34,613 bases of DNA. Origin: Nitrospina sp. LS_NOB (GTDB lineage Bacteria > Nitrospinota > Nitrospinia > Nitrospinales > VA-1). Each line of letters opens with the position of its first letter. Positions within the stretch are counted from its first letter, which is position 1. Position numbers and translations under genes: made by a program. The stretch is taken from contig LFLA01000021.1 in assembly GCA_001542995.1 (NCBI GenBank), positions 388,875 through 423,487 on the forward strand, in the 5' to 3' direction. Of this stretch, positions 17,069 to 25,808 are shown piece after piece. The notes below the pieces were generated by a model. It had not been told where the DNA came from. It did not search any database and worked only from the letters and a program-made list of their open reading frames with translations.

Positions 17069-17515
17069 ATGAGCGAAACTGAATCTAATCCTGCTGAAGA
17101 GAGCATCAAGCACTCCATTCGCAAGAATGGGTTTCCGGAGAAGATTGTCCGCCTGCCTTTCAAGCCGGTTTATGACGCCTGTAAAAAACACGGGACCTCG
17201 TTGTCGGATGTTTTGGACAAACTTCAGGGTGAACAGATTTTCGGCAAAATCACTGGCAACCATCTTGAGTTCCGCTCGCGGGAGAAAATCGATTTAAAGG
17301 TGCCAGACGAAAATGCTCCGGCCTCCGACGAGTTTTCATGGATCAAGGGTGCCGCCAACCTGAAAGGGTTTCAGGAAGCCGCCAGGAACGCCATGGGAGA
17401 AATGACAGCGGAAAAATTAGCCGAAGCCCGCAAAATGATTGATGGTATGAGCGATGAAGAAAAAATGAATATGCTGAAAATGTTCGCCCAGCGCTTTGAT
17501 CCCGGAAAAAAATAA
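17069..17515 (+). CDS. Unrecognised 148-residue acidic/charged protein
   Basis: I do not recognise this protein. It has no signal peptide or membrane helix. The N-terminal half (IKHSIRKNGFPEKIVRLPFK, VYDACKKHGTSLSDVLDKLQ) looks like a small helical domain. After an acidic linker (VPDENAPASDEF) there is a Met-rich helical C-terminus, MGEMTAEKLAEARKMIDGMS then DEEKMNMLKMFAQRF. It is the first of two genes transcribed together and divergently from nadE; the second starts 20 bases after its stop. A TATACT lies at about 17015 on this strand as a possible -10. The coding character is good (regular codon use, AGAA-type upstream region), so I treat it as real. Confidence 0.65.
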   Translation: MSETESNPAEESIKHSIRKNGFPEKIVRLPFKPVYDACKKHGTSLSDVLDKLQGEQIFGKITGNHLEFRSREKIDLKVPDENAPASDEFSWIKGAANLKGFQEAARNAMGEMTAEKLAEARKMIDGMSDEEKMNMLKMFAQRFDPGKK

Positions 17516-17535: not shown

Positions 17536-18405
17536 ATGTTGATCTTCGCTAAAGATATCAGTCAACGCGACCACCGGCACGCGCTGGAAGACAAGCTGCC
17601 TGAATTGAAACAGTATATGGAATACCAGCGCAAACTGTTTCCCTACACGGTAGTGCGGGCGGGACTGGACCTGGCATACAAGGAACTCGACGATATTATG
17701 AATTTTGTCGACAACGATTATCGACCGCCGGCAGACTCTTCGAGGCAGGAATACCCCTCCGATGTCGATCAATGGTATAAAAGCCGGTTTCCCTGGTCAT
17801 CGGCCTTTCTGAAAATGGAGGACATGCATTTCGCCCTGGTCGTTCTCGTCAAGGCGATGGATTCATTTCGCACCCACGAATCGGCCAACACCTATCACTG
17901 GGCCGTGCTCTATGATTCCGTCCATAACATCGTTCAGGTTTACAACGACCTGATTCGGAACGACCCTGGTAATTCCCGTGATATTCATTTGAGCAATGCA
18001 GTGGAAGTCAACTTCGATGACTTCATCAACAACTACTGGCATGATTTGGATTTCATGATTTTTTCCCAGGCCGATTATCCTCACGCCCGGCATCAGGAAA
18101 GAAAAGTTTCTATAGAAGAAGAAATCAAGGACATCATGTCGGAAGGTGTGGAACCCCTGACCACCCTGGAAAAACTGGACACCCCGCTCGACGCGTCCAC
18201 TTTAAAGCTTCTCCGGCGCGACCCGGTCGAAACCCGGTCCCTGGAATTAAAAAGCGTTCCGGATACCGGCAAAGAGTTCGACAAAATCTATAAAGAATAT
18301 CTGGAAGACCCTCAACACGGCAGGTTGAGTGTTATTGATGCGGAATATATTGTTAGTTGCCCACTCGCCGTGGAGGCAGATAGCAATAGCCCGTCAAGCC
18401 AATAG
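17536..18405 (+). CDS. Unrecognised 289-residue protein, tail runs into a repeat
   Basis: I do not recognise a family. The protein is soluble, rich in aromatic and acidic residues, and mostly helical in look (ELKQYMEYQRKLFPYTVVRA, DLAYKELDDIMNFVDNDY, AFLKMEDMHFALVVLVKAMD, FDDFINNYWHDLDFMIF). The C-terminal third is charged and less ordered (EEEIKDIMSEGVEPLTTLEK, LKLLRRDPVETRSLEL). An AAAGGA lies upstream of the ATG. It follows the 148-residue gene by 20 bases and probably shares its promoter. The last 15 or so codons (after DAEYIVS) lie in family D repeat sequence, so the original C-terminus may have been replaced by repeat insertion. Confidence 0.65.
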   Translation: MLIFAKDISQRDHRHALEDKLPELKQYMEYQRKLFPYTVVRAGLDLAYKELDDIMNFVDNDYRPPADSSRQEYPSDVDQWYKSRFPWSSAFLKMEDMHFALVVLVKAMDSFRTHESANTYHWAVLYDSVHNIVQVYNDLIRNDPGNSRDIHLSNAVEVNFDDFINNYWHDLDFMIFSQADYPHARHQERKVSIEEEIKDIMSEGVEPLTTLEKLDTPLDASTLKLLRRDPVETRSLELKSVPDTGKEFDKIYKEYLEDPQHGRLSVIDAEYIVSCPLAVEADSNSPSSQ

Positions 18406-18435
18406 CATCGTTGCTGGCGGTAAAAGGCCATTGCA

Positions 18436-18830
18436 ATCGTTTAGCATGACAGCGCAAAGCCGGTTTGTCATTCTGAGGAACAACGTGACGAAGAATCCCT
18501 CTCCTGAAACCAGTCTAAAGTTATGGATTCAAAACAGAGATTCTTCACGGAGCCTGTGCTGAGCGAAGTCGAAGTATTCAGAATGACAATACAATCGTTT
18601 AGCATGACAGCGCAAAGCCGGTCTGTCATTCTGAGGAACAACGTGACGAAGAATCCCTCTCCTGAAACCAGTCTAAAGTTATGGATTCAAAACAGAGATT
18701 CTTCACTACGTTCAGAATGACAATACAATCGTTTAGCATGACAGCGCAAAGCCGGTTTGTCATTCTGAGGAACAACGTGACGAAGAATCTCGCCTTGCAT
18801 AGACCCGGGATTCTTCACTTTGACAACGGG
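18436..18830. repeat. Family B palindromic repeat array, three units
   Basis: Three direct units begin with ATCGTTTAGCATGACAGCGC at 18436, 18594 and 18728 (periods 158 and 134 bp; the shorter unit lacks a 24-bp piece, GGAGCCTGTGCTGAGCGAAG...). Each unit holds TTTGTCATTCTGAGGAACAA then CGTGACGAAGAATC, and an inverted partner GATTCTTCAC...TTCAGAATGACAA, so each can fold back. The array fills the gap 18406-18849, which has no supported gene. Confidence 0.8.
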
Positions 18831-18849
18831 CGGGACCAGTCCGTGCGGA

Positions 18850-20247: not shown

Positions 20248-20365
20248 CAACTGAGTCGGTTTGTCATTCTGAGGAACAACGTGACGAAGAATCTCGCCTT
20301 GCATAGACTCGGGATTCTTCACTGCGTTCAGAATGACAATACAATCGTTTAGAATGACAGCGCAA
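20248..20365. repeat. Family B palindromic repeat, single copy
   Basis: GGTTTGTCATTCTGAGGAAC plus AACGTGACGAAGAATC at 20258-20291, then TCGCCTTGCATAGACTCGGG, then the inverted partner GATTCTTCACTGCGTTCAGA with ATGACAATACAATCGTTTAG up to 20352. It is nearly the same as the last unit of the array at 18436-18830. Together with the transposase remnant it fills most of the gap 19747-20458, with no other supported gene. Confidence 0.75.
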
Positions 20366-20545
20366 AGGGTGATGTTCTGCTTGTTGACAGCCAAAAACTC
20401 CGACTTAAACAAAACATGATGCTATTTCGGCCAACTTGAACGCCCTTCTTGCTTTAAGGTGACTGACCCCTATGTTACAATCGCCGGGCCACGAGAAGCC
20501 TCCGTATTTCAAAATATTTTTCCCCCTTCTGGCCCGCAATTTCGC

Positions 20546-22594
20546 ATGAAAACGAAAACGATTTTAAGGCAAAACCCTGTTCGCCTCCAGGGCACCGATG
20601 GAATGCGCCGGGAAATCCAACCGGCAAAGGATTCCGCATGCAGCGGGTGGACTCCGCAACAGGTGTTTCTGGAAAAGGGCTGGATCACAGAAGAGTTCAT
20701 GGAGCTTTACGCCTATTGCTACGTCAAAAACCAGCCCAGGAAAAAACCAGCTTCCTCTAAAAAGATCGTCATCGGCTGGGACCCCAGAGACCCTTCCGGT
20801 ATCTTTACCGAAGCCGTGGTTCGGGGTATCCGCAAAGCGGGAGGCAGAGCCATGGTTCTGGGTGTCGTGCCGACTCCATTAATACCCTTGTTCATGCTCC
20901 ATGAAGAGGCTGATGGAGGCATTATGGTCACTGCTTCCCACAACCCCAAAGACCAGAATGGCATCAAAATTTTTCTGCCTTTTCATGGCGTAAAGCCGTT
21001 GCCCGCTGATGATGCCGACCTGACCCGGCACCTGCTCAAACAAAACTTCGGCCGCATTAAAAAAACTCCCTTAAAGGGAACAAGAACTGACTGTCGGCAG
21101 AAAGCTCTGGAACTGTTCCAGCGTTTTTCCCTGCACCCTGAAAACTCATGGATCAAGGCTCGCAATACTTTAAAAAACCTAATTCTGGTGGTTGACCCTG
21201 CTTGCGGGGCGTTGACAGGAATCGCCGCGAAAATTTTCCGGCTTGCCGGAATCGGCAAAGTCTATGAAGTCAACAAAAATGGCGCGGTCAATCACCGCTC
21301 CGGAGTCGCTGATCTGGAAGGGTGCCCACGCATCACCGCAGACATGATCTTAAAACCCCGTTTCCATCACCACAAAGCCATCGTCAAACTATTTGAAATC
21401 GGCCGAGCCAACCAGAAATTGGCAAAGTCCGGAAAAAAAAGAATTGCCGCCGCCGTCTTCGATGCAGATGGAGACCGCTTCTTCCGCCTCGAGTACGATC
21501 CATTTCAGGATACATTATGGGTCTTGGGCGGAGACGAGACTGCCATCCTGCAGGCACGGCATCTGGTTTCCCAAGGCAAATACAATGGGTCACTCTACAT
21601 CAATACGGTGGAAAGCGACCTCAATGCTTCTGCCTCTGCCAAGTCGATGGGACTAAGCCCACTTCTCACCGCCGTCGGCGATAAATGGATTCTGCTTAAA
21701 ATCCGTCTCGCCCTATTAGAGCAAAAACTTCTCACGGCAAAACTTGCGCCGAAAAAGCAAAAAGAACTTAAAAATAAAATTAAATCGTTGCAAAAAAAAG
21801 GAGTGACGAGTGTAAACACCCTGCTGAACCTCGACACATCAATCCCCGAAAGTCCTGACGCAATAAAAAATAATTCAGAAGTTCTGGCGGTAGGCAGTGA
21901 GGAAACAGGTCACAACATCACCACCGGTACTTTAACGTTGCCCGGCAAAAAAAAGGTGTCGGTGTATTCCGGCAATGGATTAAAAAGCGCTCTCAACACC
22001 TTTGCCGCCACCGAACAGTTGGCAAAAACCTTGTCGCCGCAAAGGTATATCCAGTCTATCCGTCAACCTTTTTCGCCGGGTTTCAAGTCCACTCTTTACA
22101 CGTACTATATCCGGCAGGACCTGTTTTATAGAAACTCGGAAGTGTGGAAAAAAGTAAAACGGCTTTTATTGCAGACCGCAAAACGAAACGGATACTCCGG
22201 CAAAACCCGAAATTTCCCTGACGATCCGGACATGTTATATATTTCCCTTGCAGAGGGGAAAGCCGGTATCTTTGTGAGAAACTCCGGCACTGAAAATAAA
22301 ATCAGCGTTAACCTGCGTGGCAGAAAATCAGATGCGGGCAAACTGAAAAAAATCGGGCTGGAAATTCTGCGGCTTTTGTTCTCCCTGCTCAAAGACCGTG
22401 ACAACACTTTTTATAAAATGGAACTGTACGCCCTCAGCCAAATCGTGTCCCAACCGGTGACCGATAACAAGCTGGAAATAAAAAACCAATACAGGTCGCG
22501 ACTGATTGATGAAATGAGAAAGCAGGACCTGATTCAATCAAGCCCCGAGGGAAACCGCCTGACCCCTCTCGGCAAATGGTATATAATCCACTAG
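20546..22594 (+). CDS. Phosphohexomutase (PMM/PGM superfamily), long form
   Basis: From the ATG at 20546 the product has about 682 residues, against 440-580 for most bacterial family members. A GTG at 20459 would add 29 residues of poor quality. Family hallmarks are in order: RLQGTDGMRREI, then GWDPRDPSG, the phosphoserine loop MVTASHNPKDQNGIK (Ser near 131), the metal loop FDADGDRFFR (near 305), the sugar loop GSEETGHN (near 450), and the phosphate-binding RNSGTENKISVN (near 578). These enzymes move phosphate between C1 and C6 of hexose phosphates; which sugar is used cannot be told. There is a Lys-rich insert before the sugar loop (LLTAKLAPKKQKELKNKIKS). The last 60 residues (MELYALSQIV... 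NRLTPLGKWYII) look like a small winged helix. Confidence 0.82.
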   Translation: MKTKTILRQNPVRLQGTDGMRREIQPAKDSACSGWTPQQVFLEKGWITEEFMELYAYCYVKNQPRKKPASSKKIVIGWDPRDPSGIFTEAVVRGIRKAGGRAMVLGVVPTPLIPLFMLHEEADGGIMVTASHNPKDQNGIKIFLPFHGVKPLPADDADLTRHLLKQNFGRIKKTPLKGTRTDCRQKALELFQRFSLHPENSWIKARNTLKNLILVVDPACGALTGIAAKIFRLAGIGKVYEVNKNGAVNHRSGVADLEGCPRITADMILKPRFHHHKAIVKLFEIGRANQKLAKSGKKRIAAAVFDADGDRFFRLEYDPFQDTLWVLGGDETAILQARHLVSQGKYNGSLYINTVESDLNASASAKSMGLSPLLTAVGDKWILLKIRLALLEQKLLTAKLAPKKQKELKNKIKSLQKKGVTSVNTLLNLDTSIPESPDAIKNNSEVLAVGSEETGHNITTGTLTLPGKKKVSVYSGNGLKSALNTFAATEQLAKTLSPQRYIQSIRQPFSPGFKSTLYTYYIRQDLFYRNSEVWKKVKRLLLQTAKRNGYSGKTRNFPDDPDMLYISLAEGKAGIFVRNSGTENKISVNLRGRKSDAGKLKKIGLEILRLLFSLLKDRDNTFYKMELYALSQIVSQPVTDNKLEIKNQYRSRLIDEMRKQDLIQSSPEGNRLTPLGKWYIIH

Positions 22595-22700
22595 CCCCGG
22601 CGAACCGCCGGTGGCAGATAGCCGGGCAACGCCCGGTGGCAATGGAGAGCTTTGCACAAGTCGAAAAACCAGAAAAGCGAGATGCTTCGACATGCCCCGA
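22595..22700. repeat. Family D repeat between mutase and transferase genes
   Basis: CCCCGGCGAACCGCCGGTGG, then CAGATAGCCGGGCAACGCCC and GGTGGCAATGG: two short GC palindromes (CCGGCG...CGCCGG, CCGGGCAACGCCCGG) beside a GGCAATGG word. GAGAGCTTTGCA near 22646 resembles the end of the 2017-2173 element. The hairpins could terminate transcription from the mutase gene. Confidence 0.5.
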
Positions 22701-22797
22701 AGGGGGTATTTACAACTTCTCATGCAATATTTGGTTACGCCGAAATGAACCTTTTAACCGCTATAACCGTTGAGCAAGTTACCAACGGAGGTACTCC

Positions 22798-23595
22798 GTG
22801 AAGGATTTAAACCTGTTTTTTTCAAATTTGAGTGAGCCAGAGATTTTTGCCGGATGCGAACAGGTGTGGGATCCTTTAAAAACACTGGGTCCCCGACTGG
22901 AAAAGCTGATCCATAAAAAAGCTGGGAGCGGGTCTTTTGCCACCCATTTGCAGGGGATAAAGACCACTCTCGATTCATCCGGTTATCACCGTGGCGGAAA
23001 AGGATTTTATGTTGAGGACTGGATCAATCTGGCCGAACCGGTTTATTTGAAAGAGCTGGATATCTTCATCGGCAAGGGAACACAGTTGGAACCTTCAGCC
23101 ATAATAAAGGGCCCTGCCATGATTGGTGAGTCCTGTGATATCCGGCAAGGGGCCTATATCCGTGGCAACACCCTGATTGGAGATCACAGTGTGATCGGCC
23201 ATGCCACCGAAGTGAAAAACAGCATTCTCATGGATCATACCGAAGCAGGCCATTTCAATTATATCGGTGACAGTATTATAGGGAGCCATGTCAACCTGGG
23301 AGCAGGATCGAAACTGGCCAACCTGCAATTTAGAACCATCGATGAAAAAATAAAAGACTATATCAAACCTATCCAGGTCCCCCTTGATTCTGGAATCTTG
23401 AGTACCGAAATGGAAAAACTGGGTGCAGTGATCGGTGACAATGTTGAACTCGGTTGCAACGTCATCGTCTGCCCCGGCGCACTGATCGGAAAAGATGTCT
23501 GGGTCTACCCCAACCTAACCGTCCCAAAAGGCTACTACCCTGGCGGAACTCTGCTCGTCCCAAAAGAGCGCAAACCTAAGTCTATCCAGAAATAA
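22798..23595 (+). CDS. Left-handed beta-helix (hexapeptide) transferase-like protein
   Basis: 265 residues from a GTG at 22798, preceded by a strong Shine-Dalgarno (ACGGAGGTACTCC). The N-terminal 70 residues are unrecognised. From about residue 80 onward there are repeated hexapeptides: FIGKGTQLEPSAIIKGPAMI, GESCDIRQGAYIRGNTLIGD, HSVIGHATEVKNSILM, then AGHFNYIGDSIIGSHVNLGA and IGDNVELGCNVIVCPGALIG. This is the arrangement of the C-terminal acyltransferase half of GlmU-like sugar nucleotidyltransferases, including the HFNYIGDS motif, where GlmU has its active-site His. No nucleotidyltransferase domain is attached. It probably handles a sugar or sugar nucleotide, and lies downstream of the phosphohexomutase, which fits a shared sugar pathway, but this is inference. 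Confidence 0.82.
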   Translation: MKDLNLFFSNLSEPEIFAGCEQVWDPLKTLGPRLEKLIHKKAGSGSFATHLQGIKTTLDSSGYHRGGKGFYVEDWINLAEPVYLKELDIFIGKGTQLEPSAIIKGPAMIGESCDIRQGAYIRGNTLIGDHSVIGHATEVKNSILMDHTEAGHFNYIGDSIIGSHVNLGAGSKLANLQFRTIDEKIKDYIKPIQVPLDSGILSTEMEKLGAVIGDNVELGCNVIVCPGALIGKDVWVYPNLTVPKGYYPGGTLLVPKERKPKSIQK

Positions 23596-24107
23596 TGAAG
23601 CACGACAAATCCAAAGACAAAACCCGGCTCGATGTTTTTTTTGATATGTTCGACGCGGTCGAAGATGATATTTCCCAGTTGGTTTTTGATGATAATGAAG
23701 AGGCCACGGAGATCGGTGGGTATGAGTGCTTGTTCATTGGCTTCAGCAATCTGCGCCTGTATTGCGAAAATTCCGGGGTCCGTTTAGAACAGATAGAAGA
23801 ACAATATCAGGCGCTCAAAGAATCGCCCGCTAACGAAGAATTCGGCACCCTTACAGTTCATGAAGACCTGGATGAAAACAACGAGGTCGTCAATTTCTGC
23901 AAACTGCTGGAACAGATTGAAAACAGTTTTTCCGCTTTTGAACAACGCTCAGAAAAGAGCGGAGAAGTTTTTGACGAATGGACCGGTGTCTTCATCATGT
24001 ACTCCTATCTCAGGAATTATTGCGCGAAAGAAGAAGTCGATTTTGAAAAACTCCAACAGGCAATCTCGCGCCTCCACGCAGAAATGAAAAAAGATGAAAA
24101 TTCCTAA
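23595..24107 (+). CDS. Unrecognised acidic protein with an internal duplication
   Basis: 170 residues. The ATG shares one base with the stop of the beta-helix gene (TAATG), so it is translationally coupled to it. The protein is strongly acidic with no signal peptide. Two halves resemble each other: EIGGYECLFIGFSNLRLYCE NSGVRLEQIEEQYQAL (residues about 30-66) and VFDEWTGVFIMYSYLRNYCA KEEVDFEKLQQAISRL (about 124-160). The shared pattern is F-I-x-x-S-x-L-R-x-Y-C, then an acidic Leu helix. This suggests a tandem helical unit. I do not recognise a family. It may be an accessory subunit for the beta-helix protein, given the coupling. Confidence 0.7.
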   Translation: MKHDKSKDKTRLDVFFDMFDAVEDDISQLVFDDNEEATEIGGYECLFIGFSNLRLYCENSGVRLEQIEEQYQALKESPANEEFGTLTVHEDLDENNEVVNFCKLLEQIENSFSAFEQRSEKSGEVFDEWTGVFIMYSYLRNYCAKEEVDFEKLQQAISRLHAEMKKDENS

Positions 24108-24239
24108 GAAACCCAGATATTTGCAGAATCCGCTCCTATTAAATGATATATTGAATTTGGAAGTTTTCTGCGGGCACAACCCCACAAAATAGCTGAAAAA
24201 TCCGGGGTAAAAACCATACTAAGCCATTGAATTATAAAT

Positions 24240-24322
24240 GCGGATGTGGCGGAACTGGCAGACGCGCTGGATTTAGGATCCAGTGGGCAACCGTGGGGGT
24301 TCGACTCCCTCCATCCGCACCA
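24240..24322 (+). tRNA. tRNA-Leu (anticodon UAG), CCA encoded
   Basis: The acceptor stem GCGGATG pairs with CATCCGC, followed by A-CCA encoded at 24319-24322. The anticodon arm CTGGA-TTTAGGA-TCCAG gives anticodon TAG (UAG), reading CUN leucine codons. The long variable arm (GTGGGCAACCGTGGG region) and the T-arm GGGGTTCGACTCCC are class II features typical of tRNA-Leu. The trigger factor gene follows on the same strand after about 125 bases; an open frame runs through the tRNA into it, but the tRNA part is not protein-coding. Confidence 0.95.
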
Positions 24323-24402
24323 CCCTCTGGCGAGGGAGGCCGATAGTACAAGCTTGTCGAGCCGAGAAACCAACTGTCGGAAAAATAAAGACATTGCCAA
24401 CT

Positions 24403-24421
24403 GGGTCCAGCGTCACGCTGG
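24403..24421. repeat. Small palindromic repeat, family F
   Basis: GGGTCCAGCGTCACGCTGG contains a 7-bp perfect hairpin CCAGCGT-C-ACGCTGG. The same 19 bases occur at 3034-3052, and a version with one extra base occurs inverted at 30271-30290, directly after the lon stop. Here it lies 25 bases before trigger factor's ATG. Confidence 0.75.
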
Positions 24422-24446
24422 TCAATCTTTAAATATTTGGAAAGTT

Positions 24447-25808
24447 ATGAAAATCGAAATCGAAGACGTTGATTCCTGTAACAAAAAAATCAAGTTTGAA
24501 ATCCCTCACCAAGAATACGACAAAAAGCTGAAGCAGTATTATCAGAAACTTGGGCGAGAGGTTAAGGTTCCCGGATTCCGCAAAGGAAAAGTGCCCATCG
24601 CCCTGCTGGAAAAACAGTTTGGTCCGGATGTTAAAAAAGAAGTCCTGAGCAACCTGATCAGCGATGAACTCAATAACGCCATTGTGGAAAAAGACCTGAG
24701 AGCGGTCGGCCAACCCCATCTTTTAGAGGTCAATGCCGAAGAAGGAACCGATATCTCTGTTTCCGCATCTATCGAAGTGCTCCCCACTGTAGAACTCAAG
24801 GACTACTCCAGCATTGAACTGAATATGAAAACACCGCGCATCACGGATGACGATGTCAACCAAACTATCGAAGTGATGCGCCAGCGTAAAGCAAAAAACG
24901 TCGATGTGACCGACCGCACCGCGCGAGATAAAGACTTACTAAAGATAGATTTTACCAGCAAGCTCGGCGATGAGCCCTTTGAAGGAGGGTCTGCCACGAA
25001 CCAGATCATCCAGGCAGGGGGAGGGCAATTGATTGAAGGGCTGGACAAGGGCCTGATCGGCATGGAAATCGGCGAAACCCGCGACATTACGGTGCCGATT
25101 CCCGAGGATTACCACAATAAGGAGATCGCCGGCAAGGATGTCGATTTCCAAATTGTGCTGAAAAGTATTCAAGAGCAACAACTGCCGGACCTGGACGATG
25201 CGTTTGCCAAAAGTGTGGAGGACAAGAATTTTGCGAGCCTGGATGATATGAAACAAAAAGTTCGCTCCGAACTGGAAGATTTCGAACGTAAGGAAGCCCG
25301 CAAATCGGTGAAAAAGAAACTGACAGAAAAAATCACCGAACAGAACCAGTTTGATGTTCCGGAAGGGCTGTTGAAAGAGCAGGTCAAGTTCATGGTCGAA
25401 CAGGCCAGAAAAAAACAGGGTAGAGAAAGCCAACATGACCATAGCCACGATCACGATCATGACCACGATCATGACCACGAACACGGTGTCGAGGTGACTC
25501 CTGAGTTGCTCGATCAGTATCGCGAACCGGCCATGAAAGCCTTGCAGGAAGAATTGATTCTCGACCAGTTGTCTCGCGACCTGGATGCACAAGTCAGCGA
25601 AGAGGAGTTGGAGCAGGAGGTCAAAAACATGTCCCAATTGCTGGGCGGGGGCAACCTGCAACAGATAAAACGGGAATGGGAAAAAAATGGGGTCCTGGCC
25701 CGCCTTCACAGTCGCATGAAACGGGATAAAACCCTTGACGCCGCGCTGGAAAAAATAACCATAAAAGAAGAAATAGTTGACAGAAAAGATATAATTGCTG
25801 ATAATTAA
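24447..25808 (+). CDS. tig: Trigger factor, ribosome-associated chaperone
   Basis: 453 residues from the ATG at 24447; this start is chosen because the open frame further upstream runs through a tRNA. The ribosome-docking signature VPGFRKGKVP lies at 41-50. A peptidyl-prolyl-isomerase domain follows (about 150-240, with DLLKIDFTSKLGDEPFEGGS, IEGLDKGLIGMEIGETRDIT), then the helical C-terminal arms. Trigger factor binds nascent chains at the ribosome exit tunnel. A His-rich stretch at residues 330-346 (nine His in seventeen residues, alternating with Asp) is inserted in the arm domain; this is unusual and could bind metal. Genes clpP, clpX and lon follow on the same strand, the common tig-clpP-clpX-lon order. 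Confidence 0.96.
   Translation: MKIEIEDVDSCNKKIKFEIPHQEYDKKLKQYYQKLGREVKVPGFRKGKVPIALLEKQFGPDVKKEVLSNLISDELNNAIVEKDLRAVGQPHLLEVNAEEGTDISVSASIEVLPTVELKDYSSIELNMKTPRITDDDVNQTIEVMRQRKAKNVDVTDRTARDKDLLKIDFTSKLGDEPFEGGSATNQIIQAGGGQLIEGLDKGLIGMEIGETRDITVPIPEDYHNKEIAGKDVDFQIVLKSIQEQQLPDLDDAFAKSVEDKNFASLDDMKQKVRSELEDFERKEARKSVKKKLTEKITEQNQFDVPEGLLKEQVKFMVEQARKKQGRESQHDHSHDHDHDHDHDHEHGVEVTPELLDQYREPAMKALQEELILDQLSRDLDAQVSEEELEQEVKNMSQLLGGGNLQQIKREWEKNGVLARLHSRMKRDKTLDAALEKITIKEEIVDRKDIIADN

Follow-up and report, generated by a model that had tools for sequence, protein, structure and literature searches.

Two adjacent genes in a 34,613-nt stretch of the Nitrospina sp. LS_NOB genome (contig LFLA01000021.1, positions 388,875 to 423,487; hereafter the window) are proposed to encode a divergent phosphoglucosamine mutase and a free-standing glucosamine-1-phosphate acetyltransferase, a reading to which we assign a probability of roughly 75%, with reactions and substrates deduced from sequence. 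The two genes recur as a pair, signature residues are retained in the paired proteins and lost in a related one, and neither GlmM nor bifunctional GlmU was present above curated cut-offs in the genomes searched. Gene order and residues make it well supported that the pair would belong to a variant of a known pathway. The window is part of contig C24 of the 2.65 Mb genome (98.8% complete), and three co-directional open reading frames (ORFs) on its + strand, for the mutase, a beta-helix protein and an acidic protein, were confirmed at the positions given by a first-pass annotation.

UDP-N-acetylglucosamine (UDP-GlcNAc) is needed for peptidoglycan and lipopolysaccharide. In the proposed route to it, GlmS, encoded at a second locus of the same genome, would provide glucosamine-6-phosphate, which the long mutase would turn into glucosamine-1-phosphate, thus doing the job of GlmM despite forming a deep lineage of its own within the superfamily. 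N-acetylation of glucosamine-1-phosphate, which in GlmU falls to the C-terminal half, would be carried out by the beta-helix protein, and a GlmU N-terminal domain encoded as a free-standing protein (GlmU-N), also at the second locus, would add uridine monophosphate to give UDP-GlcNAc. The first-pass annotation had suggested that all three genes could form an atypical sugar-nucleotide route; this stands for the mutase/beta-helix pair, which is linked elsewhere to glmS and the other GlmU half, and not for the trio.

The mutase gene and its elements are as follows.

20546 to 22594, + strand: long phosphohexomutase, 682 amino acids (aa), recognised from Pfam, NCBIfam, structural model and loops; proposed divergent phosphoglucosamine mutase (GlmM function)
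20930 to 20947, + strand: phosphoserine loop TASHNP, T129 to P134 invariant in a 13-row alignment
21458 to 21481, + strand: Mg-binding loop FDADGDRF; F305, D306, D308, D310, R311 and F312 invariant in the same alignment
21677 to 21892, + strand: stretch with Lys-rich insert, from GDKW to the sugar-binding loop, variable in the family and missing in several lineages
21893 to 21913, + strand: sugar-binding loop GSEETGH, from motif position
22277 to 22300, + strand: phosphate-binding loop RNSGTENK, from motif position
22394 to 22591, + strand: C-terminal extension, residues 617 to 682, helix-helix-hairpin-helix, from the model and from structural alignments ending at 615 to 616

The frame of the mutase opens at a GTG at 20459, and relatives favour the ATG at 20546 as the start, giving 682 aa. 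Among the matches listed, its nearest named relatives were Nitrospina and metagenome-assembled genomes (MAGs) of Nitrospinae/Nitrospinaceae, with 87% identity to an uncultured Nitrospina sp. In Pfam, domains I and III of the phosphohexomutases exceeded their cut-offs while II and IV matched weakly, and the best NCBIfam model was GlmM (TIGR01455) with 111.6 bits, below the curated cut-off of 447.55. The serine, Mg, sugar and phosphate loops of the alpha-D-phosphohexomutase fold were all present, and the protein belongs to this fold. By score and by tree grouping it falls outside GlmM. An AlphaFold2 model computed from a 13-sequence alignment had a mean predicted local distance difference test (pLDDT) score of 89.5. 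Its top matches in VIA-align were the GlmM structures of S. aureus (6gyz; Z 38.7, root-mean-square deviation (rmsd) 4.0, 434 residues aligned), B. anthracis (3pdk; Z 38.6, rmsd 3.2, 438 aligned) and B. subtilis (7ojr; Z 38.5, rmsd 4.8, 427 aligned), with PMM/PGM and other mutases ranking after GlmM from Z ~35 downwards.

The long mutase thus shares with these GlmM proteins the four-domain fold and the four active-site loops, and its genetic company consists of glmS and GlmU halves. It differs from them in being ~230 residues longer, through a variable insert and an extra C-terminal domain, and in its sugar loop, which reads G[SA]ExxGH in long mutases and GGE[QD]SGH in the GlmM rows aligned here. 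A maximum-likelihood tree united 35 long mutases in one clade (100/100), outside 7 canonical GlmM (98/92) and 8 PMM/PGM proteins (100/99). Of 79 long and 23 short proteins, 52 entered the tree, for which the tool warned of some long branches meeting; the placement of a PGM2 and of a 779-aa mutase, both on very long branches, is unsure. The latter is a divergent mutase of the class relative G056 (L223:4271-6610) with a GGEPSGHMM loop and 108.4 bits to archaeal GlmM; in G056 a beta-helix gene was found and a long mutase was not. In another class relative, G058 (92% complete), neither the long mutase nor the GlmM model had a match at E ≤ 0.001.

The Lys-rich insert noted at first pass is present in the window protein, where the stretch from GDKW to GSEETGH spans 72 residues with 13 Lys. 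This distance, where measured, ran from 18 residues (insert-free) to 92 across the family, and with an insert of 0 to ~70 residues before the sugar loop across long mutases, the insert is not a defining feature of the group. The C-terminal extension is more widely shared: after the start of the phosphate loop, 93 to 147 residues followed in most long mutases with the C-terminus present (near-identical mutases collapsed), compared with 35 to 37 in canonical GlmM (4/7 rows measured). It was missing in L154 and L155 (40 and 42 residues after the loop start); the mutases of L162 and L172 are cut by contig ends. Since the alignments to full-length GlmM stop at residue 615 to 616, residues 617 to 682 constitute an added domain. 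The extension was predicted correctly at first pass; as for its description there as winged-helix-like, the order of elements in the full-length model, helix-helix-hairpin-helix, would fit a winged helix.

For the second gene of the pair, the gene and its active-site position are as follows.

22798 to 23595, + strand: left-handed beta-helix protein of 265 aa, free-standing, starting at a GTG preceded by GGAGG; proposed as glucosamine-1-phosphate N-acetyltransferase (GlmU C-terminal half)
23251 to 23262, + strand: His152 to Tyr155, acetyltransferase active-site position of GlmU, from alignments to 2ggo/5z09 and to GlmU 1hm0

The protein aligns to the C-terminal half of GlmU including the catalytic His: His152 and Tyr155 fall onto the acetyltransferase His and Tyr of 2ggo/5z09 and of GlmU 1hm0. 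Both residues were retained in 59/59 free-standing copies, counted over the window and loci L085-L242 with identical tails collapsed and with six frames (L156, L187, L144, L230, L228 and L221) excluded for truncation, read-through or odd length. The archaeal-type GlmU model TIGR03992 gave 156.9 bits over its C-terminal part, below the 292.1 cut-off, and the Pfam and NCBIfam profile searches returned no nucleotidyltransferase domain, in agreement with the first-pass description of the protein as lacking one.

In contrast to GlmU, the two activities are divided in the window genome between two genes at different loci, which encode 265 aa and 250 aa. The best sequence match in the PDB, over residues 88 to 244, was archaeal-type GlmU (2ggo, 5z09), which we take to be ST0452 of Sulfolobus tokodaii, and the same entries best matched a two-domain GlmU-like paralogue (NT-LbH) encoded elsewhere in the genome. 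The archaeal protein differs from both, as it combines the two domains with a His at position 308; the beta-helix protein lacks the nucleotidyltransferase domain, and the paralogue carries Arg at the His position. For M. tuberculosis, PMC4619583 reports that GlmU-N and GlmU-C each work alone, with K26A abolishing uridylyltransferase and H374A acetyltransferase activity.

The long mutase was present in 56 of the 60 genomes of the organism and its relatives, and in 47 of these 56 the beta-helix gene lay downstream on the same strand at a distance of at most 298 nt. The distribution outside Nitrospinota was sampled by a mutase-alignment scan of an 84,980-species genome collection, in which the best 80 of 234 relatives were kept and gave 78 loci. 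Long mutases made up 71 of these (L125-L195), some fragmentary, and among the matches listed their records were labelled Nitrospinota, SAR324, Coatesbacteria, Schekmanbacteria, Planctomycetota, Cloacimonetes, Nitrospirae, Neomarinimicrobiota and Deltaproteobacteria. In 20 of the 71, the gene directly before the mutase, on the same strand, was glmS. The counts 47/56 and 20/71 were recounted by script; 6/60, 4/25, 53/60, 24/28, 17/20 and 12/19, given below, were tallied by reading the listings.

Five of these loci (L169, L173, L183, L184 and L191) showed the order GlmU-N, GlmS, NT-LbH, GlmS, mutase, beta-helix, their genes either overlapping or separated by a few bases; in L191 the second glmS is split over two frames. 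L160 shared this order, but with one GlmS. The beta-helix gene stood directly upstream of the mutase in L168, and the mutase adjoined GlmU-N in L152 and L159. Gene order in other lineages thus connects both window genes with the synthesis of UDP-GlcNAc. L202 has the beta-helix gene immediately upstream of a canonical GlmM (606.7 bits against a cut-off of 447.55), which indicates that the two mutases take the same place. As a side observation, the GlmU-N of L159, a Coatesbacteria MAG, belongs to a single 627-aa frame (L159:3192-5075) directly upstream of the long mutase, in which a response-regulator-like part (residues 7 to 349) is joined to the GlmU N-terminal domain (residues 357 to 613).

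In the searches for the complement of the pathway, no GlmM exceeded the NCBIfam cut-off in any of the 60 genomes or of 25 locus-derived genomes (0/60 and 0/25, the own genome being in both; control 8/14), and no bifunctional GlmU did so in 28 chosen genomes (0/28; control 9/14). GlmS was over its cut-off in 27 of these 28, and a free-standing GlmU-N, matching the N-terminal half only with 225-295 bits, was found in 24/28; its signature Arg and Lys were retained in 27 of 28 copies, the remaining copy being cut. The window genome has one GlmS over the cut-off, and free-standing GlmU-N and NT-LbH at contig C25 (L119). A beta-helix copy clearly closer than the two-domain paralogue was present in 12 of the 19 locus-derived genomes searched. 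A motif search over the 30 loci from that search matched 8 of them, 3 with His and 5 with Arg, and contributed to no count. All GlmM-model matches fell at the long-mutase locus in 6/60 and 4/25 genomes, some of them incomplete, with G021 (95% complete) and G023 (91%) among these ten. Long mutases occurred in 5 of 119 Planctomycetota genomes; a GlmM-model match at E ≤ 1e-90 was found in 0/5 of these vs 59/114 of the others, for which the probability by chance is ~0.03, an arithmetic value uncorrected for kinship. Bacteria in which GlmM is missing are mentioned in PMC5814848.

Several observations weigh against the assignment as phosphoglucosamine mutase and acetyltransferase. The sugar-loop letters leave the substrate unfixed. 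The pair is not always intact, as the beta-helix gene lay ~2 kb downstream in G057, elsewhere on a single contig in G017, and on a separate contig in G024 (near contig ends), G025, G055 and G059, and no close beta-helix match was found in G012, G029 and G031. GlmU-N was not found in G056, G067, G072 and G078 among the 28 genomes searched. A further 55 of the 119 Planctomycetota had neither a long mutase nor a strong GlmM match, so that a missing model match is not proof of loss. No free-standing beta-helix copy (E ≤ 1e-10) was detected in five SAR324 genomes with long mutase (G067, G069, G075, G076 and G080) or in the Cloacimonetes genome G068; G064, too, lacked a copy clearly closer than the paralogue, but there the mutase is near a contig end.

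Other mutases also have to be weighed. The window genome encodes at contig C2 a PMM/PGM protein (521 bits to PgmG, 404.5 bits to Arch_GlmM with a cut-off of 439) that could act as GlmM, and 53/60 genomes have a further GlmM-model match away from the long-mutase locus. A side activity as phosphoglucosamine mutase is described for B. subtilis PgcA in PMC6797236. An ordinary PMM/PGM might then provide the GlmM step for UDP-GlcNAc, with the long mutase and the beta-helix protein serving a second aminosugar nucleotide, which would also fit the operons with two glmS genes, as these could mean two aminosugar products, and L149, where a PMM/PGM lies between the end of glmS and the long mutase. We consider this unlikely: the window genome has one GlmS over the cut-off, the ten genomes counted above, including G021 and G023, have all their GlmM-model matches at the long-mutase locus, and the long mutase is linked to GlmU-N, which performs the UDP-GlcNAc step.

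A reverse order of steps was also considered, with acetylation first as in eukaryotes, so that the long mutase would act on N-acetylglucosamine-6-phosphate and the beta-helix protein would carry out another acyl transfer. The five SAR324 genomes without a free-standing beta-helix copy agree with this, having the mutase near glmS and an NT-LbH without the catalytic His. The beta-helix protein, however, retains the residues of a glucosamine-1-phosphate acetyltransferase and its gene pairs with canonical GlmM in L202, which leaves this order very improbable. A divergent phosphoglucosamine mutase followed by a free-standing acetyltransferase is preferred over both alternatives.

The NT-LbH paralogue of the own genome (L119:4287-5492, contig C25) and its 42 homologues are two-domain GlmU-like proteins encoded beside glmS, 43/43 within 400 nt and on the same strand. 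The acetyltransferase His was lost in all 43: one has Ser instead and 42 have Arg, as does the NT-LbH of each of the five SAR324 genomes without a free-standing beta-helix copy. In the nucleotidyltransferase domain, the signature Arg (whose role there is our assumption) was lost in 32/32 proteins outside a SAR324-like group and kept in 10/11 inside it, and the signature Lys was kept in 13/32 outside and 11/11 inside. G067, the one SAR324 genome tested for GlmU-N, shows none, but the single paralogue of the group in which the Arg is lost belongs to this genome. With signature residues lost in both domains, NT-LbH is probably not an acetyltransferase.

We tentatively consider that in Nitrospinota and related lineages GlmU has been broken up into an active uridylyltransferase, an active acetyltransferase and a glmS-linked pseudoenzyme that would perhaps sense UDP-GlcNAc and regulate the pathway, with the GlmM step falling to a separate mutase clade with its own C-terminal domain; this larger picture is possible, at odds below even. 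By analogy, the pseudoenzyme may regulate the pathway as GMPPA does GMPPB. In the human pair, as described in PMC11228364, a non-catalytic nucleotidyltransferase paralogue regulates the active one; for NT-LbH, which lies outside the window, the likeness is one of analogy only.

Two further features of the window adjoin the pair.

22645 to 22695, no strand assigned: dispersed repeat unit with at least 43 further genome matches, to this stretch or beside it
23595 to 24107, + strand: acidic all-helical protein, 170 aa, start overlapping the previous stop (TAATG), lineage-specific

The 203-nt spacer between the mutase and beta-helix genes holds a stretch of ~51 nt with at least 43 further matches on both strands of the same genome, nearly all of which cover the central ~51 nt; as 40 of 178 first-look candidates were scored, the number is a lower bound. 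The repeat had been put forward at first pass as a reservation about joining the mutase and transferase genes. It is real and, being a dispersed genomic repeat, does not speak against their pairing. The dispersed element probably widened the gap here, and the two genes of L089, L160 and L161 either share 4 bases or are separated by a few. A promoter and terminator scan of 20350-24500 gave counts resembling those of shuffles, so that a single transcript is neither favoured nor disfavoured; one promoter-like match (10 of 12) falls where the mutase gene ends, at 22559-22587.

The TAATG junction between the beta-helix and acidic genes is exact, and the acidic composition noted at first pass is borne out by 40 D+E vs 17 K+R in 170 residues. 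The internal duplication reported with it is supported, though weakly: half against half scored 53, a value reached by 2/2000 shuffles. The model of the protein (pLDDT 84.1) was all helical. Foldseek gave no match to it at E ≤ 0.001, and the best VIA match, to the dUTPase entry 5myi (135 aligned, rmsd 5.3), had a Z of 5.8, in a range common for unrelated folds. A Pfam scan of 16 members of the family returned weak, scattered matches and no convincing family.

The first-pass annotation had regarded the three genes as a trio that might be conserved, with the acidic protein as a possible partner of the beta-helix enzyme. A strong match to the acidic protein (E ≤ 1e-20) occurred in only 20/60 genomes (23/60 at E ≤ 0.001), so that the trio is not conserved and the gene is lineage-specific. 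The start/stop overlap and the adjacency to the beta-helix gene in 17/20 strong-match genomes (own genus and g6) would suit a dedicated partner. Most relatives, however, have the beta-helix gene without the acidic gene, including G005 of the own genus (97% complete), where trigger factor directly follows the beta-helix gene. In the third genus (g7), two genomes have the acidic gene on a different contig, and the third genome yielded no beta-helix gene; the neighbourhoods of the homologues in g7 gave no functional hint. A dedicated partnership thus has very little going for it, and the acidic gene is best seen as a lineage-specific insertion, passenger or accessory after the beta-helix gene and outside the conserved pair.

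Downstream of the acidic gene, a tRNA-Leu is followed by further ORFs, which we take to be tig, clpP, clpX and lon; these and two upstream ORFs (orf148 and orf289) are also often conserved in relatives. The tRNA-Leu was the only RNA family matched in the window, and none was matched in L119, L169 and L183. The proteins encoded at 17069-17515 and 17536-18405 of the window had no Pfam family above cut-off; a number of relatives, some from other families of the order, retain them upstream of the mutase. A Sel1-repeat gene is flanked by direct repeats of ~55-125 nt (GTCATTCTGAGGAACAACGTGACGAAGAATC type) at 18424-18840 and 20254-20367, which are up to 97% alike.

Among the papers listed in searches of open-access literature, none described a split GlmU/long mutase system, which is not proof of its absence in print; nothing on point was found for ST0452 H308, a stand-alone GlmU half, GlmU His363 or a GlmU pseudoenzyme, and PMC6710349 yielded nothing of use. 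If the proposed reading is true, it would fill the apparent gap in GlmM and bifunctional GlmU in Nitrospinota (marine nitrite oxidisers), SAR324 and several candidate phyla, and it would give a testable function to a mutase clade without an assigned role. It would further provide an example from nature of an enzyme whose two domains have become separate active proteins while a degenerate copy persists next to glmS.

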